This document shows positions 13,298-38,711 of a DNA stretch of 38,728 nucleotides, one piece after another (the first letter of the stretch is position 1; each line of letters starts with the position of its first letter). Location of the stretch: IMG/VR virus record IMGVR_UViG_3300036715_003690, positions 1-38,728 of that record; one strand, written 5' to 3'. Made by a program: the position numbers and the translations under genes. The stretch is from a virus. The notes beneath the pieces were generated by a model. The model was given only the letters and a program-made list of their open reading frames with translations. It did not search any database and was not told the DNA's origin.

Positions 13298-13590
13298 TGG
13301 ATGAACGGTATTTTCGAAAATACTTAAAAGTAGGCGATCATGCTATTGCCAAAATGGACAATGATGATATTATGACAGGTGTCATAGGCATGATGGATGA
13401 CGAGTCTTTGTCTCTGCTTACTTTGGATGACGATAAAATGCTTGAGTTGTTTTTACTTTATGGCAGGATAGAATGGTTTGGTAAAATAACCCCGGGGCCA
13501 AAAGAAGTAAACGCGCAATTAGTGTCAATTATTAAACGAATAAACAAAGAACCTACGAATGACAACGATAACGAAAACGATAACCGTTGA
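13297..13590 (+). CDS. Hypothetical acidic protein
   Basis: This 97-residue acidic protein begins at a TAATG overlap; an in-frame TTG at 13282 is less likely. The pattern VGDHAIAKMDNDDIMTGVIG, then LSLLTLDDDKM, suggests a small beta barrel of the SH3/Sm sort. The end is a run of Asp, Asn and Glu that overlaps the QueD start by 32 bases. No known family was recognised. Its coupling to queD ties it to the modification operon. Confidence 0.6.
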   Translation: MDERYFRKYLKVGDHAIAKMDNDDIMTGVIGMMDDESLSLLTLDDDKMLELFLLYGRIEWFGKITPGPKEVNAQLVSIIKRINKEPTNDNDNENDNR

Positions 13591-13996
13591 CTATGGCCAT
13601 GCTCTGCATCTGCATAATGGTAGATGCAGGGGTATACATGGTCATACTGCTCGTATCACGATAGCCCTGGAAGGCACACCCTCACCTATTATGAAAGGCA
13701 CAGCTATGGAGGGTATGGTTCTTGATTATGGCACCGTGAAAGCTTTCCTGAAGGAGAGTATCGAGGAAACATTTGATCATAAATTAATTTTGTGCAAGGA
13801 TGATGAAAGATTGAATATGCTTTTATCTCACGCGGGTGTCTTTCAGAATATCTTGCGTGTTGAGGAAACACCCACTGCGGAGAATCTTGCTAAGCTATGT
13901 TTTCAAATTTTGAAAGAAAAATTCAATGGCTTTGCGAAAGTAAAATTTGTAGAATGGTGCGAGACTCCCACGAGTAGCGCACGTTATGAAGAATAA
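13559..13996 (+). CDS. queD: QueD, 6-carboxy-5,6,7,8-tetrahydropterin synthase
   Basis: This 145-residue member of the PTPS/QueD family carries out the second step of preQ0 synthesis, from dihydroneopterin triphosphate to 6-carboxytetrahydropterin. The zinc site is H14 (YGHAL) plus H27 and H29 in CRGIHGH, and the catalytic C23 sits in the same C-x3-HGH motif typical of QueD. Further active-site residues are D73-H74 (FDHK), PTAEN (105-109) and E132 and E135 in VEWCETP. Length and all key residues are normal, so the enzyme should be active. It opens the cluster that continues with FolE, QueE and QueC. Confidence 0.93.
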   Translation: MTTITKTITVDYGHALHLHNGRCRGIHGHTARITIALEGTPSPIMKGTAMEGMVLDYGTVKAFLKESIEETFDHKLILCKDDERLNMLLSHAGVFQNILRVEETPTAENLAKLCFQILKEKFNGFAKVKFVEWCETPTSSARYEE

Positions 13997-14010
13997 TCTA
14001 AGGAACTTTT

Positions 14011-15096: not shown

Positions 15097-15097
15097 C

Positions 15098-15355
15098 ATG
15101 GGTGGCTCAAGGGCGAATCGCTCATCAGGAAAGCAAAAGGAAAGCTTCCAAACAACGGCTTCTATTCATGGACGGGAAATGAAGGTAGGTGGCACTTATA
15201 ATTTCTATAATTTACATAACAGTAAACTCATAAGTTATGATAAGGCTACAAACACTTTCAAGTTCTTCAATAGCCGTATACCGTCGAGAATTTCAAAAGA
15301 TCATACTTTTATTATTAATGACCATAACAAAGCAAGCTTCAGCTTCTTGGATTAA
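15098..15355 (+). CDS. Small hypothetical protein in the modification cluster
   Basis: This 85-residue basic protein starts at the ATG at 15098, one base after the preceding stop codon; the longer in-frame extension would lie inside the preceding gene. A Ser/Arg/Lys-rich, probably disordered N-terminus (about 1-25) precedes a beta-rich part with VGGTYNFYNLHNSKLISYD and FKFFNSRIPSRISKDHTF. It ends 2 bases before folE. No family is recognised, and it is too small for a typical enzyme. Confidence 0.65.
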   Translation: MGGSRANRSSGKQKESFQTTASIHGREMKVGGTYNFYNLHNSKLISYDKATNTFKFFNSRIPSRISKDHTFIINDHNKASFSFLD

Positions 15356-15357
15356 AA

Positions 15358-15915
15358 ATGAAAAAGCCAAATATAGCTGAAGGGGAGAAAATAATTGGTG
15401 ATCTGCTTGCTTGGCTTCAATTACCTGTTGACGGGCACACGAAAGACACACCAAAAAGGGTTGCTAAAATGTACCTGGAGCTTTTCTCCGGGCTGTATAA
15501 GAACCCACCCAAGATAACCACGTTCGAGGGTAAGGATGGGTATGTGGCAGTATCGAATATAAATTTCACTTCTTATTGCGCGCATCATTTGTTGCCCTTT
15601 TTTGGCAAGGTTGGTGTTGTATATCATTGCAGTAATCGCACCATTGTAGGTCTTTCCAAAATCGCGAGAATAATAGGATACCACTCTGCTAAACCACAGG
15701 TGCAAGAGAACCTTACCGCGGATATAGCAGAAGACATAATGAAACGCCTTCAGCCAAAAGGTATTTTCGTGGTGTGTTCAGCGGAGCATCTTTGCATGAC
15801 AATACGGGGTGTTAAAAGTATCGGGAGTGTCACGACAACATCTTGTATGCTTGGTGACATTGATAAGGCGGAGGCTCTTAATCTTTTACAAAGTAACAAA
15901 CAATTTTTTCAATAA
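15358..15915 (+). CDS. folE: FolE, GTP cyclohydrolase I
   Basis: This 185-residue enzyme converts GTP to 7,8-dihydroneopterin triphosphate, the first step towards preQ0. Visible motifs are TPKRVAKMY (31-39), SYCAHHLLPFFGKV with C74, H76 and H77, VGLSKIARI (97-105), QVQENLTADIAEDI (114-127) and SAEHLCMTIRGV (H144, C146). C74, H77 and C146 are the zinc ligands. The usual C-E-H-H-L-L-P-F has Ala in place of Glu at residue 75; other catalytic residues are kept. A phage copy next to queD and queE indicates local production of deazaguanine precursor rather than folate. Confidence 0.93.
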   Translation: MKKPNIAEGEKIIGDLLAWLQLPVDGHTKDTPKRVAKMYLELFSGLYKNPPKITTFEGKDGYVAVSNINFTSYCAHHLLPFFGKVGVVYHCSNRTIVGLSKIARIIGYHSAKPQVQENLTADIAEDIMKRLQPKGIFVVCSAEHLCMTIRGVKSIGSVTTTSCMLGDIDKAEALNLLQSNKQFFQ

Positions 15916-15930
15916 AATGTAGATACCAGG

Positions 15931-16686
15931 ATGATCGTGAAAAGGAGACGTAGTGGGATTAATAGCAATATTGCTTCGCTGTATGTGCAAGAAATTTTTG
16001 ATTCTATACAAGGTGAAGGTCTCTTAAGTGGTTTCTTGACAAGGTTTGTCAGAACGAATGGTTGCACTGTTGGTTGTGCTTGGTGTGACACTAAAAATTC
16101 TTGGAGACAAAATAAAAAATTCAAAGTGCTCTGTGCTGATGTTTACAAAAGAATAGTTGAGGGCTGGAATAAGAACGCTTGGATTTGCATAACTGGGGGT
16201 GAACCTATGGAACAAGCAGAATCAGTACATTGGCTGATTGGCAAGCTTCATAAGAATGGCTATGATTATATTTCTGTTGAGACCTCCGGGTATCCCTTCC
16301 CGGACAGGAAAGTTTTATTCGATATGCTTAATGATAATGTTTTCTTTTCTGTATCACCAAAGCTTTCTTCAGCTACAAAAGGTTCGGCTAAAATAGATGC
16401 ATCTCTTGCTCGCGCGAAGGAGGTTGTAGAATTTTGGTTATCTCCTGATATGACTTTTAATGTGCAATTGAAATTCGTTGTTGGTACTGATGCTGATTTA
16501 AGGGATTTGCGAAATATTTTTGCAACTTGTAAAGGCTTCAAATTGAATACTCTAATCTTTATACAACCCGATTACTACGTTTTTCAGAAAGATAAAACAT
16601 TGATAAATAAATTATTGTTGTTTCTTGAAGATTTTCCAAATGTTCGATTATCCACTCAGATGCACAAAACACTTGATTTAAAGTAA
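15931..16686 (+). CDS. queE: QueE, 7-carboxy-7-deazaguanine synthase (radical SAM)
   Basis: This 251-residue radical SAM enzyme turns 6-carboxytetrahydropterin into 7-carboxy-7-deazaguanine (CDG). It shows the QueE hallmarks EIFDSIQGEG (21-30), the iron-sulfur site C45-x3-C49-x2-C52 (GCTVGCAWCDT), ITGGEPM (87-93), SVETSGY, a VSPKLSS segment, QLKFVV and a C-terminal LSTQMHK. All key residues are present. The start at 15931 adds a basic N-terminal stretch (VKRRRSG); an internal start is possible. Its 3' end overlaps the -33 element of the next promoter. Confidence 0.93.
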   Translation: MIVKRRRSGINSNIASLYVQEIFDSIQGEGLLSGFLTRFVRTNGCTVGCAWCDTKNSWRQNKKFKVLCADVYKRIVEGWNKNAWICITGGEPMEQAESVHWLIGKLHKNGYDYISVETSGYPFPDRKVLFDMLNDNVFFSVSPKLSSATKGSAKIDASLARAKEVVEFWLSPDMTFNVQLKFVVGTDADLRDLRNIFATCKGFKLNTLIFIQPDYYVFQKDKTLINKLLLFLEDFPNVRLSTQMHKTLDLK

Positions 16687-16703
16687 CGTTCATGGTAATT
16701 TTG
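16673..16703 (+). promoter_or_regulatory. Bacteroidota-type promoter
   Basis: TTG at 16673-16675, 20 bases, then TAATTTTG at 16696-16703, an exact match to TTG-N20-TAnnTTTG. It lies across the queE stop and would transcribe the small basic gene at 16750 after a leader of about 40 bases. Confidence 0.7.
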
Positions 16704-16749
16704 TGCAGTGCAAAAAATAACTTAATCTCTAACATGAAAGGTCACGAAA

Positions 16750-16881
16750 ATGGGTAACTCCGCGAAAGGCAAACCGGCAGGAAAGATGATTGCCGCGAAA
16801 GGCAAAGCCACTCCGGCACGGGGCGGCAAAGTAAATAGCAAGTCCAATCCTAAAGTAGGTAAAAGGGCACGCGGCAAATAA
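16750..16881 (+). CDS. Small Lys/Gly/Ala-rich basic protein (43 aa)
   Basis: This gene encodes MGNSAKGKPAGKMIAAKGKA followed by a further 23 residues of the same kind, ending KRARGK. It is composed almost wholly of Lys, Gly, Ala, Arg, Ser and Pro and contains a repeated SAKGKPAGK / AAKGKATPA unit. The protein is strongly positive and probably disordered, like the tails of histone H1-type or Hc1-type bacterial DNA-binding proteins. It has its own promoter upstream and a strong terminator 30 bases downstream, so it is a one-gene transcript in the middle of the modification cluster. DNA compaction or binding is the best guess. Confidence 0.7.
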   Translation: MGNSAKGKPAGKMIAAKGKATPARGGKVNSKSNPKVGKRARGK

Positions 16882-16910
16882 GCCTCCCAAAATTTCCTAT
16901 GCTTCTTCTC

Positions 16911-16936
16911 AAACCCGCTGTTATGGCGGGTTTTTT
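16911..16936 (+). terminator. Rho-independent terminator
   Basis: AACCCGC (16912-16918) pairs with GCGGGTT (16926-16932) around a 7-base loop TGTTATG, with an added A-T pair at the base and a run of six T at 16931-16936. It ends the one-gene transcript at 16750. The hairpin falls within the first codons of the long frame that begins at 16899, and one base before the ATG at 16938. Confidence 0.85.
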
Positions 16937-16937
16937 A

Positions 16938-17990
16938 ATGCCCAAAGAGTATTTTTTGTATAAAATAAAAACAGTATATTACACTAATATTTGTTACATA
17001 ATTTCGGATAAAACTTTGAAGCACGTACGCTTGGACTTCGGCTCTAATCCAGAGTTGACTCGTGTTATAGTTTCGCATGAGGATGGCTTCAAATCAATAG
17101 AGGCTATTTACCACAAGACCTCTCCTTTTTTGAATAAACTCAATTATGTTCTACTGTATTGCCTTTACGTTTATGATGAGGCAGAGATTGAGGTTCCTTA
17201 TTTTCTGAATAAAAGAATGTTTTCTGTTGTTATTAGCTATTTGGAAATATTACAAAATCGGGATAAAAAAATAATTTTTAAGGAGGTCTCTTATCATGGT
17301 TTGAACATTGAGGACTCTACAAAAAGTGTCTATCCTTTTTTGGTAATGTATTCTGGTGGTAAGGATAGCACCATGATTTCTTACCTCAATTCAAACGTAC
17401 CAGAAAGCATAAGAGTTATGTACGCGGAGTTTTTCGGGGTAACTGATAGAAGAAGGAGTGACTTTGTTATAGAGGGGAGTATGTTTTCATTACTTAGAAG
17501 GGCTCTTGGGGATGACAGATATTATAAAGAAGTGCTCGTTGAATTTGCGTATCCTATTTTTTATAACGGACAAAATATTCTTGTTGGCTATGAAAAGGAG
17601 GTTTGGGATAATCTAATTCTTGTTCAAGGCTTTGATATGAAAGCTTATTATAATTCTCTTTCCCACGCGGGTAAGCATGTTGCTTCTCCAATAAGTCACA
17701 TGGATTCTTTGACTATTCTGGAGACCCTCAAGAAGATGAAGGTAGACTTCGCTCATTGTAATAGTGAAGACTTCATGGATTTTTGCTATCACTGCTTCAA
17801 ATGTGATACTCTTTACTTGATGGGCGCGAATAAAAAATTGCATGGTTTTGACAGAAAAATGTACAAGGAAGTAACGAGGGAAGAAGACGGGGCAAGTGTT
17901 GAAGCATCACTCCTTCAGCATTATTCTGATAAACCTGCTTTACTGGAATTTTTAAGGAAAATTAATACATGCAAACAGCTAAAATTTTAA
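16938..17990 (+). CDS. Divergent QueC-like PP-loop ATPase
   Basis: This 350-residue protein has a PP-loop, VMYSGGKDST (S139-G-G-K-D-S-T145), which adenylates carbonyl or carboxylate substrates. It ends with C274-x8-C283-x2-C286-x2-C289, the exact cysteine spacing of the QueC zinc site. Before it is ASPISHMDSLTILETLKKM, which parallels the SPFVHMDKTDMV of the QueC at 18729. The QueC motifs for substrate binding (RN, PDR, SCY) are missing, and an unrelated N-terminal region of about 130 residues is added. It is therefore a QueC relative with another substrate, perhaps the carboxyl or nitrile group of the deazaguanine. The in-frame ATG at 16899 lies before a terminator hairpin, so 16938 or a later start is preferred. 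Confidence 0.7.
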   Translation: MPKEYFLYKIKTVYYTNICYIISDKTLKHVRLDFGSNPELTRVIVSHEDGFKSIEAIYHKTSPFLNKLNYVLLYCLYVYDEAEIEVPYFLNKRMFSVVISYLEILQNRDKKIIFKEVSYHGLNIEDSTKSVYPFLVMYSGGKDSTMISYLNSNVPESIRVMYAEFFGVTDRRRSDFVIEGSMFSLLRRALGDDRYYKEVLVEFAYPIFYNGQNILVGYEKEVWDNLILVQGFDMKAYYNSLSHAGKHVASPISHMDSLTILETLKKMKVDFAHCNSEDFMDFCYHCFKCDTLYLMGANKKLHGFDRKMYKEVTREEDGASVEASLLQHYSDKPALLEFLRKINTCKQLKF

Positions 17991-18757
17991 CGATGGTTCG
18001 GGAGGATCGCTTTGCCATGTTCTCAAAGGTTATGACGAATCTCTTGTTGAACACGACGAGCATAAGTATAGAGTGGGAAATTCTCACGTACTCGATGGAT
18101 TTCGCGAAATTCTTCAAAACGGAATTCGCAATTGCTAAACGAAACAAACACCTTATTGACGTGCACCTTGTTTCTCATGATGTCTCCATGCCCGCGGCGA
18201 AAGCACGATGGGCTCTGTCGCACGAGGGGTATGACGTTTTTCTCGTGCTTGATGACGATGTTTTGATCGCTCAAAATGACTTTCAGAAAATAGTCGAAGC
18301 AATGGAAAAATTGGATAGTGACAAAAAATGTACCCCTGATATGATAGTCATATCCACGGTTGATGTCGAGAATGCACGTGGCTTCCCGGATTACACGGAC
18401 AAGGTTTTTTCAAACCCCGATGGTACCGACATTATTTTGAGGAAGGACATTCCACTTAAGATGTATGGCAAGGTTCGTTTTGATCATGTTGGTCCGGCGT
18501 ATGGTGTCTCGGGTACGTATATTATAAAAAGAGATTGCTTTTTAGCTCTCTACGAGTCATTCATAGCCTATAAAAAAGGTGAACGTGGTTATGACACGGA
18601 ATTATTCTTGAGTATACCGGAGGATAAACGGGTGCAATTGGGTCAGGCGACCGCGTGGCATATAGGTTGCTATGAGCCTTTTTTTAACGAGCATTGGAAA
18701 GGTATGCGGAAGGAGGTTAGTGATTATTATGAAGCCAAAGAAAGTCCTACTGTATAG
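17969..18757 (+). CDS. GT-A fold glycosyltransferase
   Basis: This 262-residue protein looks like a family 2-type, nucleotide-sugar-dependent glycosyltransferase. The strand and metal site VFLVLDDDVLI (D95-D97) is a DxD motif that binds UDP- or GDP-sugar through a metal ion. An upstream Rossmann-like start (AKILTMVREDRF), an acceptor-side segment GPAYGVSGTYIIKRDCF and a late AWHIGCYEPFFNEHW fit the fold. The start overlaps the PP-loop gene by 22 bases and its end covers the QueC start, so it is co-translated with both. Its setting inside the 7-deazaguanine operon suggests that the acceptor is the modified base or DNA; this is inferred. Confidence 0.75.
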   Translation: MQTAKILTMVREDRFAMFSKVMTNLLLNTTSISIEWEILTYSMDFAKFFKTEFAIAKRNKHLIDVHLVSHDVSMPAAKARWALSHEGYDVFLVLDDDVLIAQNDFQKIVEAMEKLDSDKKCTPDMIVISTVDVENARGFPDYTDKVFSNPDGTDIILRKDIPLKMYGKVRFDHVGPAYGVSGTYIIKRDCFLALYESFIAYKKGERGYDTELFLSIPEDKRVQLGQATAWHIGCYEPFFNEHWKGMRKEVSDYYEAKESPTV

Positions 18758-19496
18758 TGGTGGTCTTGACTCCTTTATTGCTTCTGCTTACTTGAAACCC
18801 GATATGCGGGTATACGTTCCTCTTGGGCATAGGTACCAGGAAGCTGAGATGAAGTCCATTATGAGGACAAATCATGTAGGAAAAATACATTATGCCCCGG
18901 GCATGCACATTGGGGCATTCGAAAAAAATGACGCTGAAATCCCCCTTCGGAATTCTTATCTTTGCCATGTTGCAACGAGTATGGCACTTCGTGAATACCC
19001 GGCAGCAAACAGCTACATGATTGCTCTTATTGTTCAGGAGGATGAAATGAGTATCCCTGACAGGACACAAGAATTTATGATGAACATGAGCACGCTTCTT
19101 ACAAGTCTGTCCGGGAAAAATATCATCGTGGAGTCTCCTTTCGTGCACATGGACAAAACAGACATGGTTCATTGGTACATTGAAAATTATGGCAAGTCTG
19201 GCATAGCTTCGCTCGTGAGTACACATTCTTGCTATAGCCCGGTTCGTAGTAACTCGGGTTTTATTGAATGTGGTAATTGCCCGGCTTGCTTTCGAAAATT
19301 TGTTGCTCTGGCAAACAATGATATTACAGGAAATTTCGCGGTGAATCCTGCTGAGTCAACCACGGCGCGTACTTACTTGGAGAACCTAAATAAGTATAGC
19401 GAGAAAAGACAGCACCGCATAAAGGATGCTATTGCTAAGAAAACACGACTATTTATTACGAAAGAAATTACGCATGGACGAGAAAAAAGAAGATAA
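18729..19496 (+). CDS. queC: QueC, 7-cyano-7-deazaguanine (preQ0) synthase
   Basis: This 255-residue enzyme converts 7-carboxy-7-deazaguanine to preQ0 with ATP and ammonia. Motifs: PP-loop LLYSGGLDS (10-15), IPLRNSYLCHVATSMAL, SIPDRTQEFMMN (the PDR motif), ESPFVHMDKTDMV, and STHSCYSP with CGNCPAC as zinc site. The first Cys is separated from the next by 12 residues instead of the usual 8. The ATG at 18729 is chosen because GAAGGAGG (up to 18716) is the clearest Shine-Dalgarno site in the window, 12 bases ahead, and because the fold begins right at KKVLLYSGG. It overlaps the GT-A gene by 29 bases. Confidence 0.88.
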   Translation: MKPKKVLLYSGGLDSFIASAYLKPDMRVYVPLGHRYQEAEMKSIMRTNHVGKIHYAPGMHIGAFEKNDAEIPLRNSYLCHVATSMALREYPAANSYMIALIVQEDEMSIPDRTQEFMMNMSTLLTSLSGKNIIVESPFVHMDKTDMVHWYIENYGKSGIASLVSTHSCYSPVRSNSGFIECGNCPACFRKFVALANNDITGNFAVNPAESTTARTYLENLNKYSEKRQHRIKDAIAKKTRLFITKEITHGREKRR

Positions 19497-19611
19497 ACTT
19501 GAAGGTAAAAGGATAAAATTCATACGTGCACGTGGTTCTTCCAATGGTGACCCCCATGTTACTTTAGAGTACCTGGAGCCAAATGCCGGGGTGGGTGAGG
19601 TGGCTGAATGA
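19474..19611 (+). CDS. Small hypothetical protein (45 aa)
   Basis: This 45-residue protein starts inside the QueC end (ATG at 19474). Its stop overlaps the next gene in an ATGA arrangement. After a charged start (MDEKKEDKLEGKRIKFIRAR) it has a short strand-turn-strand and ends in EVAE. The two overlaps indicate a translated linker gene. No function is recognised. Confidence 0.55.
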   Translation: MDEKKEDKLEGKRIKFIRARGSSNGDPHVTLEYLEPNAGVGEVAE

Positions 19612-20582
19612 TTTTAATAAACAGGTTGCATAAGACTGCTGATTCTTGGAGCAAGGATTTTCAGGAACGTCTTGAGGCTGTCGCGGATAATCGTGTCCTT
19701 TTTTATGGGGAGCCTATCTCCGTTTTGAGCAACTCAACGTTGTTTGAAAACCTTGCTTATTATGGTTATAAATCAATGCTTGAATTGCGTGGGAAAGTAG
19801 AAATGATCGGGCATGAGAACATCGAGAAAATAATTTTCTTGGATTCTATGCAATTGCCCTTCCAACAAATGATTGGTCTTGATAGGGAAATTCCTTTTGA
19901 GATATACGTGCACGTGTCAAAGGATTATCAAGATTATGTGCACGCTCCAGCGTACTATAAGCAAAATTCTCTTTGTACACCGATGCTCGTGTCAACTTCT
20001 TCAACAGCTTTATCTTATGGTTTGCATGAATCACAATATAGGTCTATTGGTTGCCCCTTGCTTCCTTTTCAGAATGCCTCTATTAAAAGAAGCAAGACGG
20101 TTATTTGGGCAGGAAATGATATTAACAATCCTGTAAAAGGATTTCCTGATTTTCAAAAACTAATGCGTGAATTTCCTGATTTTGAATTTCATGTTTGCAC
20201 GAGACGAATACCCTTATCCGTGGCGGAAACTCTAGCAAAGGAACATCCTAATATGGAGTTACACGTGGGACTTACTTCGGAGGAATACCAGAAGCTTGCA
20301 TCCACTTGCGAGATTATCGTGAGCACAGCCTTTTGTGAGTCCTTTGGCCTTTCCGTTATGGATGCTGTCGCAACAGGGACTATCCCTTTATGCCGAGATG
20401 TTGGTTCTTATCATGATCTGTTTCCACGGAATTTCCTGTACTCGGATATTCTTCAAGCTGATCTTTATAAAGCTCAAAGGACTGATGAGGCAGGCTTTCT
20501 TAGTTTGGAAATGGTGGTGAATCATTTCTCAGCAAAAAATGTGTACGAACGTCTTATAAATCCTATGGATTGTCACGGGTGA
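19608..20582 (+). CDS. GT-B fold (GT4-like) glycosyltransferase
   Basis: This 324-residue protein has the C-terminal half of a GT4-type glycosyltransferase. Visible segments are TVIWAGNDINNPVKGFPDF (about 164-182), FEFHVCTRR, LHVGLTSEEYQKLASTCEI (219-236), ending with STAFCESFGLSVMDAVATG (E244). In that motif the Glu and the following FG bind the nucleotide sugar. The N-terminal half is alpha/beta without a clear signature. There is no membrane segment. It is placed between QueC and DpdA, with a coupled start to the small gene at 19474. A second sugar transferase of another fold in the same operon suggests two-step decoration of the modified base, though the acceptor cannot be read from the sequence. 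Confidence 0.75.
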   Translation: MILINRLHKTADSWSKDFQERLEAVADNRVLFYGEPISVLSNSTLFENLAYYGYKSMLELRGKVEMIGHENIEKIIFLDSMQLPFQQMIGLDREIPFEIYVHVSKDYQDYVHAPAYYKQNSLCTPMLVSTSSTALSYGLHESQYRSIGCPLLPFQNASIKRSKTVIWAGNDINNPVKGFPDFQKLMREFPDFEFHVCTRRIPLSVAETLAKEHPNMELHVGLTSEEYQKLASTCEIIVSTAFCESFGLSVMDAVATGTIPLCRDVGSYHDLFPRNFLYSDILQADLYKAQRTDEAGFLSLEMVVNHFSAKNVYERLINPMDCHG

Positions 20583-20586
20583 GAAA

Positions 20587-21579
20587 ATGGAATTAATATT
20601 CGCGGGTGTGGAAGACAGGCAGATCAGGAATGATTGCTATAGCGCGGGAGTCAAGAAAGTCCTGATGTCCTATTACTATATTATTGACAAGGGTGTTCCC
20701 TTTGACGAAGTTCTCGATATGTTTCCTCTCGTTGTTCTTGATTCTGGGGCTTTCACCATGTTCTCAAAAGCACAAGATAATCACGAGAAAATTAACCATG
20801 TCAAATATCTTTCAGACTATCTCAATTTCGCATCCAAGTATATTGGGAGACTCTTTTGGGTCGCTAACTATGATGTTAACCTGCTTGTGGGGGACAAACA
20901 GGTCTATGATTGGAATAAAGAATTTGAGCAATTGGAGAAAGAAGGTCAGCGAGTCTGCTATGTCACTCACGATTATAGCCTACCATACAAGAATCTTTAC
21001 GAATACTTTGATCGTTATAACTTTATAGGTGCATCAGGTGGTATCAATTCAAAAACTGATACTGGATACTTTGAGCAAGTATACAATCTCTCCTACAGGT
21101 ACAGGAAATTGGTTCATGGGTTCGCTATGACAAACTTCGTGTCATTTGATAAATTTCCCTTGTTTAGTGCTGATTCAACCACGTATTTTAGTGGTGGTAA
21201 ATATGGCATCACATATGTCTGGAATGGGAGTTTCTTTGAGACGATTGATTACACGAAGAAGGAAGCTATTCGTAGACAGCAATTTCGTACCTGCCATAAA
21301 TGGGGTGTTGACTTTGGCAAATTCATGGATGATAATACTCGGCAGGTGAATAAATTCAATATCAATGCTTGGCTTATGAATGAGAAAAATTTTAACAGGA
21401 GAACACTGAATAGACAATGGTGGCTCACTGAAGCAGAACGCGATTTCATTAAAACGAATCCTTTTTACATGTGTACACCAAATGAGCTTGAAGTAATGCA
21501 CGGTGTAGCACCAAAGGTTGCGCCGAAAGGCCGACGTGGTAGACGAAAGAAAAAGAAAGAAGAAAATGGCAACACTTAA
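20587..21579 (+). CDS. dpdA: DpdA-like DNA-guanine transglycosylase
   Basis: This 330-residue TGT-related enzyme exchanges guanine in DNA for a 7-deazaguanine base. Signature segments are VVLDSGAFTMF (D52-S-G54), FWVANYDVN (D96), VCYVTHDYS, FIGASGGI (147-153), HGFAMTN (177-183) and FSADSTTY (D196). The LDSGAFT and SADST motifs are typical of phage DpdA, where the Asp residues serve as nucleophile and general acid. The C-terminus is a basic tail, KGRRGRRKKKKEE, that likely aids DNA binding. It follows the GT-B gene by 4 bases and overlaps the HNH gene by 14. No tRNA-queuosine role is expected, because this is the DNA-type branch of the family. Confidence 0.88.
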   Translation: MELIFAGVEDRQIRNDCYSAGVKKVLMSYYYIIDKGVPFDEVLDMFPLVVLDSGAFTMFSKAQDNHEKINHVKYLSDYLNFASKYIGRLFWVANYDVNLLVGDKQVYDWNKEFEQLEKEGQRVCYVTHDYSLPYKNLYEYFDRYNFIGASGGINSKTDTGYFEQVYNLSYRYRKLVHGFAMTNFVSFDKFPLFSADSTTYFSGGKYGITYVWNGSFFETIDYTKKEAIRRQQFRTCHKWGVDFGKFMDDNTRQVNKFNINAWLMNEKNFNRRTLNRQWWLTEAERDFIKTNPFYMCTPNELEVMHGVAPKVAPKGRRGRRKKKKEENGNT

Positions 21580-30400: not shown

Positions 30401-33097
30401 ACAGCTATCGATTTGCGGACTCAAATGTCGGGTCTCGCGATTGATCTTGCTATTGAGGACGTTCGTTCTTATGCAAAGTCAAAAGCAAACAAGGATGCCA
30501 TTGGTGAAAGCAAACGCTCATACGGTATATTCGAGAGTAACTCCAACTTGTCACACAAACTTGATAATATCATAAAGCCTCAGCAGGAAATAAATGCTGA
30601 AATTATTAAGAACATTGATGCTATACCTGTTGATGCAACCCCAGAGCAGGTAACAAACCAAATAACCGCTATCGCTACAAGCCTTCGTAAAAGGATTGAT
30701 AATGAGAACAGCAAAGGAATTATATCGCTCTTTAAGCAATTTCTAGGTGGCGTGTATAGCACGAAGGAAGGTAAGCTTGACGAGGACAAGTACAAGGAGG
30801 CTATTAAATCAGCTTTCGGTGTAGATTTTGTTGACATCAGTTCTCTTGGGGACTTTGAAAAAACTGACTACGTGCAAGATATTATTGACAGGTACAACAA
30901 GGACTTGGCACAGGTTACTATGCTTGAGTCTAAAAGAATCGCCGTGAATAATGCTCTTGTAAATTCAGTGAAGATAGCAGAGAAGCCAACTGTTCCGAAT
31001 GACGAGGATAAGGTGCCAAAGGACAAGTACAACGATGACCCGTTGACAAAGGAGTTGAAAGAATTCAAGCTACAAGCTTCTATCATGACTGAGCAGTATA
31101 ACCACCTTGCTTCCACTCTCATGGAAATGAGTGCTTCTATGGCTTCTCTGGGAAATAGCGATCAGCTTATTAAACGGCTCACCGCTCCCCAGACAGAAAT
31201 AGAAAAAACTTTCAAGGAAGGTGTTCAGGATTACTCTAAAAAGGTTCTCGAAAAAATAGCAGAACTGAAGAAATTCAAAGCACGTGCGCTCGCGAATACA
31301 AATAGGGATTTTGGTTTTAGACAGGCCAATGAGATTGATCAAATGCTAAAGCAAGCAGAAGCAGAAAATTTCAAGCTGCAAATGCTTCCTTATGATAACA
31401 TGGTCAATCGCATGAAAGAAGACCTTAGTGCTGCCGAGATTCGTTTTTACTCCGCGGGTACTCCGGAGGAAAAGGCTACCGAACAGAAGACAATGATCGA
31501 GATGCAGAATAAATATCGGGAGGCAAAAGAAGATCACACTGCAAGAATAAGACAACTCATTGATGAGGGTAGGAAGAATGGCTTTTCCTTTGTACAAATA
31601 GAAGTTTTGTATGATATGCTCACGAAGGACTTGAAAGAAAATGCTGCCACGCAAAAGAAAACTTCTGATCTGGAAGCAGAAATAACAAATCTTTCAGGGA
31701 GTGCTGACTCTATAATGAAAGCGTACGAGTCTTTAGAGGATAAGAAAGAAAAACTCCGGGAAAGGATATTGTCTAATTATGCCACAACCCCGGAACAAAA
31801 AGCAAAAGAATTAGAGAACCTGAAAAATACCAGCCAGGCGGGAATTAATAAACTGTTCACGGTCGAAGAACAAAAAGCGGCTGATATAGAAGCAGAGGTA
31901 AATATTGATAGGCTTTCTAAACTCGTTGAATCGATGGGTGAAGACTCCCAGGATTACAAGCATTTGTTTAATGCTACAGAAAAAATAGAGGCTGAGAAGT
32001 CTCTTATTAGAGCGCAGTATGACAAAAAAATAGCTGATATAAGAGCAAAGCAAGAAGAAGAAGAGGCGAGTATCGCGGATATTCTCAAGAAGAGAAAAGA
32101 CTACGAAAAAGGCAATAGTGGTGTCCCTTTGAGCCCGGAGGAAACGAAACGTGCTAATCTTTATGACAGGAATACTGCTGCGCGTAACGCGCAAATTATA
32201 GCTTTGTCAAAGGACAAGGATAAGGAAACGGATAAGGTTGACAAGAAAAGTATGCTCTCCAAATTCAACACGACAAAGGATTTTCTGGATAGAATTACAT
32301 CCGCTTTTAACACGTATTTTGAATGGAAGAAGCAAAAGATTACTGATGAGGTTGAAACTTGGAAGAAAGCTCAAGAAGTAATTCTTACGAACGAGGAAAA
32401 CTCCGCGATGCGTTTCGCGACAACGGAGAATCAAAAGGAGCGGGTTCGTCAACAATTTGAAATACGTAAACAGCAACTTGATAAAGAAGCGGAACAGAGG
32501 AAGCATGCTGCTTTGAAAAAGGACTGGGAAATCTCCCATGCTCTCGCTATGGCACAAATTGTTACCAATACCGCGATCGGCGTGATGTCAGCTTTAGCGA
32601 TGCTTCCCCCCAATATTCCTTTGTCTATTATCATTGGTGCAACAGGTGCCACGGAACTGGCAATAGCAGCCTCTCAAACACCACCCAAATTTGCTGAAGG
32701 CGGTCTTAATGTAAATGGGAAAGGCATAAGCTATTTGCCAAAGGGTTTATTCCGGGGTGTTGGTGGTGAGAAGGATGATAAAAACCTTGTTCTGCTTAGT
32801 GACAACGAATTTATTGTTAATGCCCAGCAGACAAAGAAACACTTACCCTTACTTCAGGCTATTAATGACGGCTTCGCGAACGGCGGTTTGTTTGGTGGTG
32901 GTATCAAGACTGATCTCTATGCCATGAATTTTAGTGCCAACACTAGCGCGCTGCATAGTGAACTGAAAGACATGAATAAGAATTTAACGAAGCATCTCGA
33001 GAATCCTGTTAGACCTATACTTATTATTGACAAGTATACTGCCGGGGAAATAGCAGGTATTGGGATACAGGAAATGAAACGTGGAGCCGGATTATGA
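27437..33097 (+). CDS. Tape measure protein
   Basis: This 1886-residue protein is the longest gene. The N-terminal part (about 90-200) has the tape-measure pattern KYRTTLGVMLKDTELARERF, then AAVTPFSVTQVIEAG and GDLAAASGKPMEEALAAFQA. Long stretches of coiled coil follow (about 380-750 and 1200-1650). Hydrophobic segments lie near 760-795 (SPLALLTGVLTVYSAVKSFW) and 1700-1745. Near the C-terminus is a typical KFAEGGLN/NGKGISYLPKG region with NEFIVNAQQTKKH. Tape measure proteins fix the tail length and help DNA injection; at 0.15 nm per residue this suggests a tail near 280 nm. The start at 27437 is the first ATG after the terminator. Its stop overlaps the next ATG. Confidence 0.92.
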   Translation: MPVQDGVRFIADIKDIEQAFTRIKSGITELKQTSASALRDMVVPPQTKADLTEINKFINEIKTNIRGWSLNIIAFERILYMVTQIKAVISAPLDDSGLFEKYRTTLGVMLKDTELARERFEEMVKFAAVTPFSVTQVIEAGNQLQAVGRYSLDTLRSLGDLAAASGKPMEEALAAFQALAVGRKGIALRMFRTLLVTYQDFMDELHVKTKKGGREIDASIEDLLDALPRIIEKKGFAGMMDKQMETYQGRMQNLRDIMQQVMAGVGDTYMPEVKKFLIETTNYVQQHKKEIIEIADTIKHTSETSLNFVSHMLSPIKTLFTGVSAVFGGVNNSISLMMNSLNAFLMLTAGKALSNRLMKNTIDNWAESHGIASAQIMQHAKAMGILNKEATNMSSRIESMAKRDMYGVMGRQTPTRAGMMNSGIPGVNPDNVDEIIRQRQLLITANKAVANAQFKNDVIGGNGLLSRNVFKPNEETRKELQKELQEATEIRDQIKKNIAETLKPTTMKEQLFIDKEHLAILQSKNTLYQKARAIQNMIVERQKILLVDGEQQVGTTQAEIRAMQEKLILATQEATERIRGNAALMSEFALQEQIVDAEIGKAVKKEFVKSIEVDILALDTEREILLEEGNATEAAGIELRISKLRQIAEEIEMMTEAQALNERGTLSWEATALMTEKGAKNLRKYDDQLAERANREGSIRSLVAEQAAKEVEASFVEEQRSLVLNKIKAQQEEITTAVMMQTKEISLSAIAQSAFNGLLSFGKALMADLKAMFLSSPLALLTGVLTVYSAVKSFWEESDKKAEESAEKARASTADAIKQRIDYYKEEAELTEKQVKQLEYARDIAMTMERDRRQAAALSGDKGQKVDGEYIQSIKERKALYDAEVKVLEDLEDKRAKLSAKTLSTAALDTDALKKLSNEISNQRVKVNDLADSYNAAITAKSALIEKTNVLKRLFPDLAAQIDNVGISSSNTSGLLFIINERMAALKQTAIDLRTQMSGLAIDLAIEDVRSYAKSKANKDAIGESKRSYGIFESNSNLSHKLDNIIKPQQEINAEIIKNIDAIPVDATPEQVTNQITAIATSLRKRIDNENSKGIISLFKQFLGGVYSTKEGKLDEDKYKEAIKSAFGVDFVDISSLGDFEKTDYVQDIIDRYNKDLAQVTMLESKRIAVNNALVNSVKIAEKPTVPNDEDKVPKDKYNDDPLTKELKEFKLQASIMTEQYNHLASTLMEMSASMASLGNSDQLIKRLTAPQTEIEKTFKEGVQDYSKKVLEKIAELKKFKARALANTNRDFGFRQANEIDQMLKQAEAENFKLQMLPYDNMVNRMKEDLSAAEIRFYSAGTPEEKATEQKTMIEMQNKYREAKEDHTARIRQLIDEGRKNGFSFVQIEVLYDMLTKDLKENAATQKKTSDLEAEITNLSGSADSIMKAYESLEDKKEKLRERILSNYATTPEQKAKELENLKNTSQAGINKLFTVEEQKAADIEAEVNIDRLSKLVESMGEDSQDYKHLFNATEKIEAEKSLIRAQYDKKIADIRAKQEEEEASIADILKKRKDYEKGNSGVPLSPEETKRANLYDRNTAARNAQIIALSKDKDKETDKVDKKSMLSKFNTTKDFLDRITSAFNTYFEWKKQKITDEVETWKKAQEVILTNEENSAMRFATTENQKERVRQQFEIRKQQLDKEAEQRKHAALKKDWEISHALAMAQIVTNTAIGVMSALAMLPPNIPLSIIIGATGATELAIAASQTPPKFAEGGLNVNGKGISYLPKGLFRGVGGEKDDKNLVLLSDNEFIVNAQQTKKHLPLLQAINDGFANGGLFGGGIKTDLYAMNFSANTSALHSELKDMNKNLTKHLENPVRPILIIDKYTAGEIAGIGIQEMKRGAGL

Positions 33098-35541
33098 GTG
33101 AACCAAAACCCAAGTATCAAATAGAGTTCATGGAATTCGGCGTTGACGCGAATTGGATTGACTGGACACCGTGGCTTTTGAATGACGGTGTAATTAGTAA
33201 AAAAGTCGAAAGTGATAATCCTGCTGATATTGGGGTTGTTGCTTTTGATACTTATAATGTTACATTTCGTTATGAGGACATTGTTCGTGATCGTTTGCGG
33301 AAGCCCTTTAATGAAAAGAAAAGGTACTTGTTCAGACTATCCATTTGGTATCTTTTTGAAGATGTACCCACGCAAAAGAACATTTTTTATGGCGTGCTTG
33401 ACTTTATGACTATCACGTATCCCCTGATGAAGGATGCCACCGGGGAAATCATAAATATTGTCTCTTTTGATATTCTTGACAAACTGAGTAGTATTGCAAT
33501 GCTCCGGGAGATAGAATTAAGAGATAGCTACTACATGGAATTGAAGGCGAATCCTATAATTCAAATGAGCCCTATTTCAAGTACAGACAAAAAGATAACG
33601 GTATACGCGACGGATGATGTGGATGGTACGAGCATTTTGAGCTATGAGACTATTGTTTATTACTGGTCCACGCAAGGTTCTGATCATTTGGAGGACATGG
33701 TAAATCATCTGAATACTTTCAAAGTCCACGAGAATTTAATAACTTACTTCAGGGCGGGCGATATTATAAAGGCTCCCGCTGATTGTGGTGACCCCGAGAT
33801 TGATGACGATGCAAGTACTTATCTTCTTGTTTTGGAGGCAAGGGAATCCTCTCTCGCTATTTACGGCACGGAGAACGCGGCATATGAATTGGTTATGCGG
33901 CAACAAATAAGAGTATTCCCAAGAGTTCCCACGGGTACCGATTGGGTCATATACTACACGAAAATATGGACACCCCGTATGTATGATTATACTGATATAA
34001 ACGTGTATGACAATACTGCTAACGGGGGTACAGACACGACTGAAAGAACCGATATTCTTTCAACTGTTGTTCGTGGTTGTTATTTCAATAAATACAATGG
34101 TAGAAAGACCTTCTGGAAGCTCTACGATTTCGCGGGTGGCTCGAATACGTTACTTTATGAGGATGCACCCATAACGGACTTCGTACCGGGAACGCTATTT
34201 AGAAACAAGGAGTATGTTGATCTCTCCAGTATGCAGGCTCTTGTCTCTGAATTTCTGGAACCAGGCGACTACGAGGTGACCACTCTTTTGGCCAGTACTT
34301 TTCCTGATAGCACTTATGAATATGGCTATGTCGATATTGCTAATGGCGTGCGTACAACGCTTGCTATAGAAAGTCTTTGTGCTGACCCTCATGGCACAAC
34401 TTATACCGCGAATGTCATTATCACGAAAAATATGTCTTTCACAATTCCTGCTGGGAGTCCAAAACAATTCTACGTGCAGGCTGTTTATGGTAAAGACTTG
34501 AAGGTCGCGTACGTGGAAATAAAAAAGCCAAAACAAAAAATAAGACAAGACTCCGCGTATATAAACAAGTATTACTACGAGGACGCCGTGAAAGCCTTCA
34601 GGTTGATTGGTATACTCGAGTCTCTCATTTCTTATGCTTGGGGTGACGCGAGTATTTCTTACGCGGTAGGTGCTCTTACTGACGCGGATTTTAGGTTACC
34701 ATACGATTACTTTAATCAGTTGATCATGAAACAACCTTTCCTTCAGCATCCTTTTGATGCTCTCAAGTATGTCGTGAATACTTTCGGCGCGTATTTGTAT
34801 GTCACGAATGACGGCAATTTCAAATTAGCCGTGATTGACAACCTTTCTACTGACACGCCTATTGGTTCTCTCTCTTTAAATGGTATAAATTTCATAAGTG
34901 GTACGAAGAAAGAATTTTGGGACAAGTTAACAGACGCTTTTAAGGTTACAGCGAAAACATGGATGCGTATAACACTCACTGATTTGAATGGCGTTATTTC
35001 TGATGTGGCTCTTGATGGTGCGGGGGTGGCATATAGTTTTCCCGACATTACACCCCACAATCTTAAGAGTAAAGATGTTTTGGTTACCCAAAAAATGCTC
35101 ACGGACATTGGTATGTACCTGGGTACTTACTCGGGATCAGACCCCAAAATTATATACGGGGGGAGTGGTCCCACGAAAAAAGGGGGTATTGTTATACGGG
35201 CAAGTAGATACTTGTATAATTCAGACGGGAATGTTTTAACGGACCAACAGAATGCTCTTAATGTTATTGCAGAGGCATTCGCTGAAAAATATTTTTCTTT
35301 TTACGGGAAAAAGCATGTCTATTACGAAATCTCCTGCACTCTCACGCTGGAAATGTTTGATTGGCTGCCTTCTTCTATAATTCTTGTTGATGGTGTTAAA
35401 TGCATTATCATATCCCTGCGGTTGGATAAATGGTCCAAGATAGCCACCTTTCATCTCGTTGCTGTTGAGGGCGAGGATTATTCTGAAGGTTCTATATGGT
35501 TGGGCAGTTCAACCTTTGATCTCAACTCATCAAGGATATAG
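33094..35541 (+). CDS. Tail-tip / baseplate hub protein (large)
   Basis: This 815-residue protein is coupled to the tape measure gene by ATGA. The order tape measure, then a large tail protein, is the place of distal-tail and hub proteins of siphoviruses. The N-terminus (IEFMEFGVDANWIDWTPWLL; DVPTQKNIFYGVLDF) resembles a distal-tail or hub beta domain. The centre (about 180-500) is rich in beta strands and Thr/Tyr, and the C-terminal third has FQLI-like alpha/beta parts such as KYVVNTFGAYLYVTNDGNF. No receptor-binding or lysozyme motif is seen. The exact role is inferred from position. Confidence 0.65.
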   Translation: MSEPKPKYQIEFMEFGVDANWIDWTPWLLNDGVISKKVESDNPADIGVVAFDTYNVTFRYEDIVRDRLRKPFNEKKRYLFRLSIWYLFEDVPTQKNIFYGVLDFMTITYPLMKDATGEIINIVSFDILDKLSSIAMLREIELRDSYYMELKANPIIQMSPISSTDKKITVYATDDVDGTSILSYETIVYYWSTQGSDHLEDMVNHLNTFKVHENLITYFRAGDIIKAPADCGDPEIDDDASTYLLVLEARESSLAIYGTENAAYELVMRQQIRVFPRVPTGTDWVIYYTKIWTPRMYDYTDINVYDNTANGGTDTTERTDILSTVVRGCYFNKYNGRKTFWKLYDFAGGSNTLLYEDAPITDFVPGTLFRNKEYVDLSSMQALVSEFLEPGDYEVTTLLASTFPDSTYEYGYVDIANGVRTTLAIESLCADPHGTTYTANVIITKNMSFTIPAGSPKQFYVQAVYGKDLKVAYVEIKKPKQKIRQDSAYINKYYYEDAVKAFRLIGILESLISYAWGDASISYAVGALTDADFRLPYDYFNQLIMKQPFLQHPFDALKYVVNTFGAYLYVTNDGNFKLAVIDNLSTDTPIGSLSLNGINFISGTKKEFWDKLTDAFKVTAKTWMRITLTDLNGVISDVALDGAGVAYSFPDITPHNLKSKDVLVTQKMLTDIGMYLGTYSGSDPKIIYGGSGPTKKGGIVIRASRYLYNSDGNVLTDQQNALNVIAEAFAEKYFSFYGKKHVYYEISCTLTLEMFDWLPSSIILVDGVKCIIISLRLDKWSKIATFHLVAVEGEDYSEGSIWLGSSTFDLNSSRI

Positions 35542-35600: not shown

Positions 35601-35918
35601 ATGGTTAAATATTTGGAAAAAGCAGCCATTATCGTGGTTGCATTTTTATTGATTTTTTTAGCATACAAACAACACGAAGCAATGAAGTCCATTACCACGA
35701 GTGTTTCCTTAATCGAGAAGCAGGTGAAAATGAACACGCAGTACATGGCAACTATCGATAGCCTGATCGCGCGAAAAAGAGACTCTGTATTTTTCTACAC
35801 GAATACCATTAAAATAATTGACAAAGAAAAAGAACAACGAAATGAAATCATCAGTAATACTACTGACATTGATAGTCTTATCAATTTCTACTATAAGCTT
35901 CGGCCAATCGGTTTCTAA
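35601..35918 (+). CDS. Membrane-anchored coiled-coil protein (Rz/i-spanin-like)
   Basis: This 105-residue protein has one N-terminal membrane segment (about 7-21, AAIIVVAFLLIFLAY) and then a long periplasmic-type helix of Lys, Gln and Ile with heptads (SVSLIEKQVKMNTQYMATID and KIIDKEKEQRNEI). That is the layout of Rz-type inner-membrane spanins, and the next gene starts inside it in another frame as Rz1 does. The start at 35601 is the first ATG, behind GGTTTGAAGGGT. The spanin assignment is likely but not certain; a phage anchor protein of other use is possible. Confidence 0.6.
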   Translation: MVKYLEKAAIIVVAFLLIFLAYKQHEAMKSITTSVSLIEKQVKMNTQYMATIDSLIARKRDSVFFYTNTIKIIDKEKEQRNEIISNTTDIDSLINFYYKLRPIGF

Positions 35919-36210
35919 GCTGGATTCCTCTTCAGTCAAGGTAACCAAAGAAGAACTTAAATTCATAACAAAAATTTATTCGGACTACCAGTATCTTTTT
36001 TCTGCTGACAGCTTGAAAAATCTCGTGATCGCGAAGCAGAATCAGGAGATTGATTTACTCCAGCAGAAACAAAAATTACTCGAGGATAACTTCCTTCTCA
36101 AGCAAAAGGAGGCTGATGCACTCGAGCCTACTTTTTGGGATAAAGTCCGTCCTTATGCTTTTGGTGTCGCGGGTTTTTGTGTTGGATATATCATACGAGG
36201 TAACCGATGA
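35842..36210 (+). CDS. Secreted or membrane-spanning partner, nested start (spanin-like)
   Basis: This 122-residue protein starts inside the previous gene, in another frame (77 bases of overlap). It has an N-terminal signal peptide, LLTLIVLSISTISFG|Q, with a Bacteroidota-style SFGQ end and no lipobox Cys. A coiled-coil stretch follows (about 55-90, KQNQEIDLLQQKQKLLEDN), and a final hydrophobic segment (about 100-116, RPYAFGVAGFCVGYII) could span a membrane. The nested position is like Rz1, but Rz1 is normally a short lipoprotein, so this would be an unusual spanin. Its stop overlaps the next ATG. Confidence 0.6.
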   Translation: MKSSVILLTLIVLSISTISFGQSVSKLDSSSVKVTKEELKFITKIYSDYQYLFSADSLKNLVIAKQNQEIDLLQQKQKLLEDNFLLKQKEADALEPTFWDKVRPYAFGVAGFCVGYIIRGNR

Positions 36211-36656
36211 CAATAGCAATCTTGACACTTCTGGTTATTATTTTTTATGGGGTGAAAGCCTATCGTGATGTAGGTTTTATTCGCGCAATGGAAAGTACAA
36301 CGGTTACGAATCCTGTTTTGTACAAAAAGAATATCGGTGTATGGCATGTTGCCGACATTTTTGAAAAAGCTATCGTGCATGTTGTTATGATTGTCGCGGT
36401 ATACCCGGGCATCACGGTAAAGGGTCTATGCTTTGCCTTCGTGTATCTTGGTGTATCACGTTGGTTGTGGAATGACTTCTTTATAGATTTTTTTCGTGGA
36501 AGGGATTTCGATGCACTCCCTTCAGTAGACGGGAATTGGGATATAACTGATTGGACAATTGTTCAGCTTGAACGCCTTCACATTCCCCCGGTGGTTGTAA
36601 AGCTTCTCTTGTGTGGCATTACTGGATATATCTTTTACGGGTACTCACATGTGTAA
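36207..36656 (+). CDS. Multi-pass membrane protein (holin candidate)
   Basis: This 149-residue protein starts at an ATGA overlap. Hydrophobic segments lie near 3-18 (IAILTLLVIIFYG), 55-87 (two helices, AIVHVVMIVAVYPG and GLCFAFVYLGVSRW) and 131-147 (VVKLLLCGITGYIFYGY). That gives three to four membrane passes. Between the last two is a soluble loop with FFRGRDFDALPSVDGNWDI. Small multi-pass proteins beside spanin-like genes are often holins, but the loop is longer than usual. It overlaps the REC-PAS gene by 8 bases. Confidence 0.55.
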   Translation: MTIAILTLLVIIFYGVKAYRDVGFIRAMESTTVTNPVLYKKNIGVWHVADIFEKAIVHVVMIVAVYPGITVKGLCFAFVYLGVSRWLWNDFFIDFFRGRDFDALPSVDGNWDITDWTIVQLERLHIPPVVVKLLLCGITGYIFYGYSHV

Positions 36657-37854
36657 GCTGCTTATTGTTGAAGACAACCCAGAACATGTTTGGATTACCA
36701 AGAAGATTCTGTTGAAAGTCCTGAAAGATAGCGAAATTATTGTTGCTGCTGGTTTCGATGATGCTGTTGATAAAATAGGTATCGAAAATCCAAATCTTTT
36801 TCTCGTGGATATAAATTTGGGTGCCGGGCATACAGGTCTTGATCTTATCCGTGTTATCCAAGAAAACGTTAAAGACCGAAATATCGCGGTAATGACTGCC
36901 AGCACGAATAATGAATTGCTAATAAAGCTTATTGATATGGGCATTGATAAATTCTTTCTGAAGCCCTATAATCGGGATGAGCTTGTTAGCTATTACTCGA
37001 TAAAAAAAGAGCAAATAAATGCAACGAGGGCTCTGAATAAGTTCGCCGAAATGCTACAATACCAGGTTGTCTCGGAAAAGATACCCATGGGTGTGACTAT
37101 TGTTGATATTGAAGGCAACATCGTGTATGTCAATGAGCAAATGGAAAGACAAACCGGATACACGAAAGAAGAACTATTGGGGGCGCATACAAGGATTTTC
37201 AAATCGGGTTTGCATGAGGATACTTTTTACACTAATCTCTGGGAGACTGTTCTTAATGGTCGCACATGGAAAAATGAAATTTGCAACAAGAGAAAGGATG
37301 GCTCCCTGTATTGGGAGGAACTAACCGCGGTTCCTTATTCAGAAGAAGGCAAAGTAACCCATATTATTGCCTATAAATCGGACATCACGAAGCAGCGGGA
37401 AATGGGCATCGAGCTGAAAAGCATCATCGAGGCCAACAAATCGCTCATCTTTATTTTGGATAATGACTTAAAGTACTTGAAATGCTACCCGGAGCAATCC
37501 GAGAATTTCTTCGCGGCGCCCTCAGAATTCTTGGGGCAACATGTAGGTGCCACGATACTTGATGATGAGACACGGGACACGTTTATAGCCAATTTTACTT
37601 TCGTGAGCCAAAACAGGCGGAAAAGAATTTTCCAGTATAAAGTAGAAAACGAAATCTGGGAATGTGTAGTGTCCCCTTTCAACGGGACAAAGATTATAGC
37701 TATCATGCAGGATGTAACGGAAAGGGAAGAATACTATAGCAGGGCTAAAAGCATCGAGGCAATAACAAATAGTTCAAAGGAACTCCGAAGTGTTTTGAAT
37801 AATTTTTTAGAAATGAGCACGAAGCATGTCGAAACAACCCGTGGCAATTACTGA
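36649..37854 (+). CDS. Phage REC-PAS-PAS sensory protein without output domain
   Basis: This 401-residue protein has a response-regulator receiver domain at 1-120. Its E8-D9 acidic pair is in LLIVEDN, the phospho-acceptor is D54 (LFLVDINLG), T83 is in VMTAS and K105 in FFLKP. All five conserved features are present, so it should accept phosphate. A PAS/PAC domain follows (about 145-250), with GVTIVDIEGNIVYVN, QTGYTKEELLG and VTHIIAYKSDIT. A second PAS lies at about 255-360 and ends with AIMQDVTERE. The last about 40 residues are helical (SIEAITNSSKELRSVLNNF). No His-kinase, GGDEF, EAL or DNA-binding domain is seen. The ATG at 36649 is preferred over a GTG at 36613. It is co-transcribed with membrane proteins. 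Confidence 0.88.
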   Translation: MCKLLIVEDNPEHVWITKKILLKVLKDSEIIVAAGFDDAVDKIGIENPNLFLVDINLGAGHTGLDLIRVIQENVKDRNIAVMTASTNNELLIKLIDMGIDKFFLKPYNRDELVSYYSIKKEQINATRALNKFAEMLQYQVVSEKIPMGVTIVDIEGNIVYVNEQMERQTGYTKEELLGAHTRIFKSGLHEDTFYTNLWETVLNGRTWKNEICNKRKDGSLYWEELTAVPYSEEGKVTHIIAYKSDITKQREMGIELKSIIEANKSLIFILDNDLKYLKCYPEQSENFFAAPSEFLGQHVGATILDDETRDTFIANFTFVSQNRRKRIFQYKVENEIWECVVSPFNGTKIIAIMQDVTEREEYYSRAKSIEAITNSSKELRSVLNNFLEMSTKHVETTRGNY

Positions 37855-38384: not shown

Positions 38385-38711
38385 ATGGCACTCAAAAATA
38401 TAAAAAACGCAACAGTAAAAACAGGCGAAGATTTCATATACGTGGGTCTTGGTGAGGACCTCCTTTGTGGTATCGTACTCTTGACAGGCACCGCTTCTGC
38501 CGGAGTTACAATATCCGCTTCAACAGATGGCACTGATGCCTACCCCATGAATAGTACTACCGGGGCTTTAGTCCTCCCGGCATTGACAGTAAATCAGTAC
38601 TATGTAATCGACCCCGCGAACTTTGAAGGTGTCAGTACTGTGAAACTATCTGGATTCTCTTCTGGCGCGACAATGAAATTATTCACCAAAACTGTACGTA
38701 CAGTAAGATAA
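38385..38711 (+). CDS. Small beta-rich virion-type protein
   Basis: This 108-residue protein has a Gly, Ala, Thr and Ser-rich sequence with alternating strands (TGEDFIYVGLGEDLLCGIVL; VTISASTDGTDAYPM; VKLSGFSSGATMKLF). It has no membrane segment and no cysteine pair. The composition fits a small structural or decoration protein of a phage particle. It is preceded by AAAGGCAACAAA. No family is recognised. Confidence 0.6.
   Translation: MALKNIKNATVKTGEDFIYVGLGEDLLCGIVLLTGTASAGVTISASTDGTDAYPMNSTTGALVLPALTVNQYYVIDPANFEGVSTVKLSGFSSGATMKLFTKTVRTVR

Follow-up and report, generated by a model that had tools for sequence, protein, structure and literature searches.

What could a tailed phage do with a protein that joins a two-component receiver (REC) domain to two PAS domains and ends with no output domain behind them? 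Such a protein is encoded in the window, by which is meant the whole stretch of 38,728 nucleotides analysed here, an IMG/VR virus record classed as linear (IMGVR_UViG_3300036715_003690, positions 1 to 38,728). In reverse orientation, the window matches a 72-kb record (G001) at ~99.9% identity, and that record extends the view of the locus. The first-pass annotation of this DNA had described a REC-PAS-PAS protein without an output domain. That observation holds, and the open reading frame is real and complete. The parts of the protein are already known, and it is their combination at such a phage locus that is unusual. Features of the locus and of related loci are collected in Table 1.

Table 1. 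Features of the REC-PAS-PAS locus, with related features on other contigs (L002, 72-kb contig)
Feature	Position	Strand	Basis or remark
815-aa presumed tail protein, after 1886-aa tape-measure-like gene	33094..35541	+	Inferred from size and order
108-aa protein, one N-terminal TM segment	35592..35918	+	Inner-spanin-like by layout only
130-aa protein, 101-nt overlap with preceding gene	35818..36210	+	Outer-spanin-like by layout only
149-aa membrane protein, ~3 TM segments	36207..36656	+	End overlaps REC-PAS-PAS start by 8 nt
REC-PAS-PAS gene	36649..37854	+	ATG start, 401 aa, ORF complete, soluble
REC domain, residues 5-114	36661..36990	+	PF00072, E=6.9e-15
Long linker helix REC-PAS1, residues 109-141	36973..37071	+	AlphaFold2 model, low confidence here
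PAS1, residues 137-255, MmoS/NifL/Aer-like	37057..37413	+	Pfam and PDB searches; model pLDDT ~95
PAS2, residues ~266-361, divergent PAS_4	37444..37731	+	PAS_4 E=1.5e-4, just below cut-off; model
C-terminal helix, residues 357-400, continuous	37717..37848	+	AlphaFold2 model; position where kinases/cyclases run into output domain
142-aa protein, one central TM segment and flanking charged helices	37826..38254	+	Start overlaps REC-PAS-PAS end by 29 nt
108-aa protein	38385..38711	+	Next in longer contig: 131-aa holin-like gene, then endolysin
131-aa TM protein, holin-like	L002:10151-10546		Outside window, 72-kb contig
N-acetylmuramidase endolysin	L002:10543-11241		Outside window; PF11860 1.7e-39; PHROG endolysin 1.1e-46
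Cellulophaga phage membrane-anchored candidates	L064:39102-39620; L065:6203-6925; L067:2911-3546; L066:2935-3537		

Domain architecture of the protein

From the N-terminus, REC is followed by PAS1, which is strong, then by PAS2, which is divergent, and by a C-terminal helix of ~44 residues; no transmembrane segment is predicted in the 401-amino-acid protein. An in-frame GTG at 36613, upstream of the ATG, would lengthen it by 12 residues. The AlphaFold2 model referred to below was built from a ten-row alignment; a single-sequence model with a mean pLDDT of 35 was set aside.

An ordinary receiver (PF00072) is matched at 55.6 bits against a cut-off of 30.2, whereas the cREC of jumbo phages (PF20274; PMC7824862) reaches 18.8 bits against a cut-off of 27 and was rejected. 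The active-site residues E8, D9, D54, T83 and K105, read from the sequence, are all intact and are exactly those named at first pass. The protein has the features of a response regulator, i.e. a REC fold match with the acidic pair, the phospho-acceptor Asp, the Thr/Ser and the Lys. In the AlphaFold2 model the REC part displays alternating strands and helices at low confidence, as the alignment could take in no REC relatives. A REC alignment of six sequences was too diverse to serve for a scan. Receivers had been called rare in phages, which is fair but not absolute: several PHROGs families match REC, and phage PAS and histidine-kinase proteins are found in BFVD.

PAS1 is matched in Pfam by PAS_9 (E=7e-19, residues 146-247). 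Its best solved-structure matches in a PDB sequence search are MmoS (3EWK, 1.4e-29), NifL (2GJ3) and Aer (8DIK). The first two head the match list, and FAD redox PAS domains are the closest solved sequences. PAS1 and the PAS-A domain of MmoS are identical in 40 of 103 columns (39%), and Foldseek with the model places MmoS at the top, followed by the NifL-NifA complex. FAD contacts in Aer are H53, N85, R115 and W70, and the MmoS counterparts include N164 and R195 (PMC9668731). In the phage protein, N213 aligns with Aer N85 and MmoS N164, W198 aligns with Aer W70, G156 is kept among the FAD-contact equivalents, and K243 is a conservative change at the R115/R195 position. T181 is found in place of the Aer/MmoS His, and FAD binding is therefore uncertain. 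With N213 and W198 kept, a conservative K243 and T181 for His, binding of FAD by PAS1 is plausible, not established. A LOV blue-light photoreceptor was considered and rejected: the adduct Cys is absent, and the motif region reads GAHTRIF as against GKNCRF in the Bacillus photoreceptor 2PR5.

PAS2 is more divergent. With the C-terminal half scanned alone, it scores 22.4 bits against PAS_4, 0.7 bits under the curated cut-off of 23.1, and in the AlphaFold2 model it displays PAS topology with a pLDDT of ~65-82. PAS2 and PAS1 were also compared by profile (E=3e-28), and the result was discarded: two PAS2 sequences were collected and 44 reported, so that the comparison looks merged and circular. Of the two PAS domains that had been placed after the receiver, the first is thus strong and the second weak but supported by the model.

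No output domain was found in the 401-amino-acid protein by Pfam, NCBIfam, PHROGs and PDB sequence and fold searches. HisKA has no match in the region of the C-terminal helix (Pfam, profile search), and profile and PDB searches for a kinase, cyclase, phosphotransfer or DNA-binding domain after the PAS domains were empty, in agreement with the first reading of the locus. A hidden catalytic domain, which would have told against that reading, was not found with the AlphaFold2 model, Foldseek and Pfam. A match to the PriA 3′ DNA-binding domain at residues 325-391 (14.9 vs 22.7 bits) overlaps PAS2 and is taken as chance. Two complete signalling proteins were also considered and rejected: a hybrid histidine kinase, as neither HisKA nor HATPase is found in the protein or the 72-kb contig, and a REC-PAS-GGDEF diguanylate cyclase, as the GGDEF domain was not found. 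The 72-kb contig has one REC, and in none of its frames is there a trace of HisKA, HATPase, Hpt, GGDEF or a kinase; the phage genome may be incomplete, with a kinase possible beyond the contig.

Phage origin and gene neighborhood

The gene belongs to a phage and not to host DNA. Tail genes are found upstream and an endolysin gene downstream, and the 72-kb record also carries terminase, portal and major capsid genes. Over the 14.6 kb surrounding the gene, the two records differ at four positions, all outside the gene itself; three of these (38554, 38590 and 38687) fall in the 108-amino-acid gene at 38385-38711. Among the best matches of the capsid protein are one gut phage and one Bacteroides phage (34-35%), along with Streptomyces phages, and the endolysin is best matched by a Polaribacter phage (36%). 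A Bacteroidota host is plausible, though unproven. A Bacteroidota promoter motif was not enriched.

Elsewhere in the window, positions 13559-21579 carry a 7-deazaguanine pathway set consisting of PTPS/QueD-like, GTP cyclohydrolase I, radical SAM (QueE-like) and QueC proteins, together with a queuine tRNA-ribosyltransferase-like protein at 20587-21579. Such a set suggests that bases of the phage DNA, or of tRNA, are modified. The extreme end of the 72-kb contig displays a 30 bp tandem repeat in ~4 copies (L002:14093-14220) that encodes repeated AKPPKREAVP.

The REC-PAS-PAS gene is encoded in a lysis cassette, with tail genes upstream and a holin-like gene and N-acetylmuramidase downstream. It overlaps the membrane-protein genes on both sides and is thus built into the tail-to-lysis gene run. 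The gene had been described as lying among membrane and spanin-like genes. The membrane genes are confirmed, whereas "spanin-like" is a reading of gene layout; the 130-amino-acid protein has a hydrophobic N-terminus, a charged and helical middle and a short hydrophobic C-terminus. In a comparison of the nested pair 35592/35818 with nested pairs of Cellulophaga phages, one of four corresponding pairings was above shuffles, and spanin homology is not claimed. The lysis-related location itself is strengthened by the endolysin found beyond the window.

Proposed function

It is tentatively proposed, at somewhat less than an even chance, that the protein is an orphan response-regulator-type sensor or adaptor of a tailed phage, through which host phosphorylation and redox state adjust lysis by way of the neighboring lysis and membrane proteins. 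The REC domain would take phosphate from a histidine kinase of the host; no such kinase is encoded in the part of the phage genome that is known. PAS1 would bind FAD or another ligand and sense redox, and PAS2 and the long helix would relay the change through dimerization. As there is no enzyme or DNA-binding domain, output would have to be by protein-protein contact. The neighboring lysis and membrane proteins would be the likeliest partners, because the gene sits between tail and endolysin genes and overlaps membrane genes on both sides; through them, host phosphorylation and redox state could tune lysis. The run of co-directional overlapping genes leading into the holin-like gene and endolysin favors this proposal. 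Position is the one feature of the gene that points to lysis, and against such a link, late phage clusters carry unrelated genes too. Of the first-pass interpretation, the phage origin, the missing catalytic domain and the lysis-cassette position are supported; lysis timing, interference with host signaling and the C-terminal helix as effector are candidate roles.

If the proposal is right, the protein would provide a post-translational sensory input to phage lysis, unlike transcriptional quorum-sensing inputs such as VqmA. It would also offer a testable function for the output-less REC-PAS-PAS class, within a small system and with candidate partners encoded next door.

Alternative explanations

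A decoy, the main rival, is possible but rather unlikely. Here host two-component responses would be silenced during infection, either because the REC domain draws off the phosphate of host kinases or because the PAS domains associate with PAS kinases or cyclases of the host; a phage partner would be unnecessary. An intact REC with no cognate kinase in the known phage genome is consistent with this, as is the resemblance of the protein to the headless front half of cellular REC-PAS-kinase/GGDEF proteins. There is precedent in phage PIT4, an early protein that binds host histidine-kinase domains (PMC10714779), and single-domain regulators can act as phosphate sinks (PMC12802240). However, takeover proteins are usually early, PIT4 included, and the REC-PAS-PAS gene is in a late tail-lysis cluster. 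A phosphate sink also needs no two PAS domains, and similarity to cellular REC-PAS proteins is only ~30%. If the protein is a decoy, it would represent an added phage way to silence host two-component signaling.

That the gene is a passenger, i.e. a captured fragment of a host signaling gene that was cut before its output domain and has no present function, is unlikely. The protein does stop where its relatives go on into HisKA/HATPase or GGDEF, and no related phage was found to keep the gene. The first-pass annotation had proposed a search for homologues; searches with the whole protein, REC alone, the tail protein and the 534-amino-acid protein returned no diverged phage homologue, only the ~99.9% identical sister contig, and the capsid protein returned that contig and one further contig only. 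REC and PAS matches in phage collections are largely to unannotated contigs or to apparent bacterial sequence under phage names. Nothing points to decay of the gene, and, as no diverged phage orthologue was found, nothing points to conservation or purifying selection either. Among 30 phage genes this one has the lowest codon-usage score (z=-2.7), although within their spread of -2.7 to +3.0, whereas GC and GC3 are normal and like those of neighboring phage genes, so that composition gives little sign of recent capture. Against a passenger are also the frame, which is unbroken and retains the PAS core and every REC active-site residue, the snug overlaps with both neighbor genes, and the absence of a kinase remnant in every frame.

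A virion or tail accessory, either a cytoplasmic assembly partner or an injected sensor whose position reflects the tail operon and not lysis, is very improbable: tape-measure-like and tail-like genes are nearby, but membrane genes intervene before them, the next modules are holin-like and endolysin, and the protein matches no PHROG tail family.

PAS and possible PAS-like proteins in other phages

PAS-histidine kinases are encoded on viral contigs L019 and L024-L027. Those of L024-L027 are near-identical 409-amino-acid proteins (L026 is cut) with transmembrane segments, PAS and HATPase, and come from several metagenomes. A single-PAS protein is found on viral contig L020. A 48-kb viral contig encodes a 269-amino-acid PAS-PAS protein without an output domain (L023:5491-6300), a few kb before a 955-amino-acid protein with a weak portal match.

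Foldseek against BFVD detected a 240-amino-acid protein of Cellulophaga phage phi19:1 (E 2.2e-6) and a 172-amino-acid protein of phage phi18:3 (E 9.5e-5), which were assigned to phi19:1 gp108 and phi18:3 gp090 by length only. As with the REC-PAS-PAS gene, both genes lie between tail genes and endolysin, and in phi38:2 a gp090 relative comes immediately before the endolysin. In several families of Cellulophaga phages, the stretch from tail genes to endolysin repeatedly holds a membrane-anchored protein that may have a PAS-like domain. The gp090/gp108 families look membrane-anchored, at 172-240 amino acids and with no REC, whereas the REC-PAS-PAS protein is soluble. Membership of the latter in the gp090/gp108 family was rejected: it has no N-terminal transmembrane segment, and the profile comparison of gp090/gp108 with PAS1 is not significant (hhalign E=0.1). 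The parallel, drawn from predicted structures, is only suggestive. A broader hypothesis, and a distinctly unlikely one, is that lysis cassettes of Bacteroidota phages repeatedly include sensors with a PAS fold: membrane-anchored PAS-like proteins next to holin-like and endolysin genes in several Cellulophaga phage families, and the soluble REC-PAS-PAS protein here. Redox or energy state and two-component phosphorylation of the host would then set the moment of lysis.

Comparison with known systems

PIT4, like the protein under a decoy role, is a phage protein acting on host two-component systems, but no REC-PAS architecture is described for it, it binds kinase domains and its gene is early. 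In phage VP882 the lytic program is launched by the PAS receptor VqmA (PMC8284805). Like the protein considered here, VqmA is a PAS sensor encoded by a phage; the cue that it reads comes from the host, and the lytic program is under its control. VqmA differs in that it consists of PAS and a DNA-binding domain acting on transcription and has no REC.

Cellular relatives that start with REC-PAS (L029, L031, L036-L038, L040, L048) display ~30% identity over residues 4-257. In the one sampled phylum these, to judge from their sequences, run into HisKA/HATPase or GGDEF, whereas the phage protein continues into PAS2 and the helix. Six candidates per genome were scored in 297 genomes, a sampling too narrow to infer that output-less REC-PAS-PAS proteins are lacking there.

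With MmoS (3EWK), NifL (2GJ3, 9QQ6) and Aer (8DIK), the phage protein shares PAS1 sequence, predicted fold and several FAD-contact residues, and its PAS domains are in tandem as in MmoS and NifL. NifL is a FAD-containing PAS1-PAS2 protein that relays redox state to a binding partner (PMC3466315). Unlike these proteins, the phage protein has an N-terminal REC and no kinase-like, NifA-binding or chemoreceptor part.

With PAS after REC and no recognizable output domain, the protein has the architecture of orphan REC-(PAS)n regulators. Archaeal REC-PAS-PAS response regulators without output are a known class, none studied experimentally, for which dimerization and protein contacts have been proposed as the mode of action (Galperin et al., 2018; PMC5847659). 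The phage protein shares with this class the REC-PAS-PAS order, the conserved REC residues and the absence of an output domain. It differs in being phage-encoded, in a tail-lysis cluster, and in having a PAS1 of the FAD redox type.
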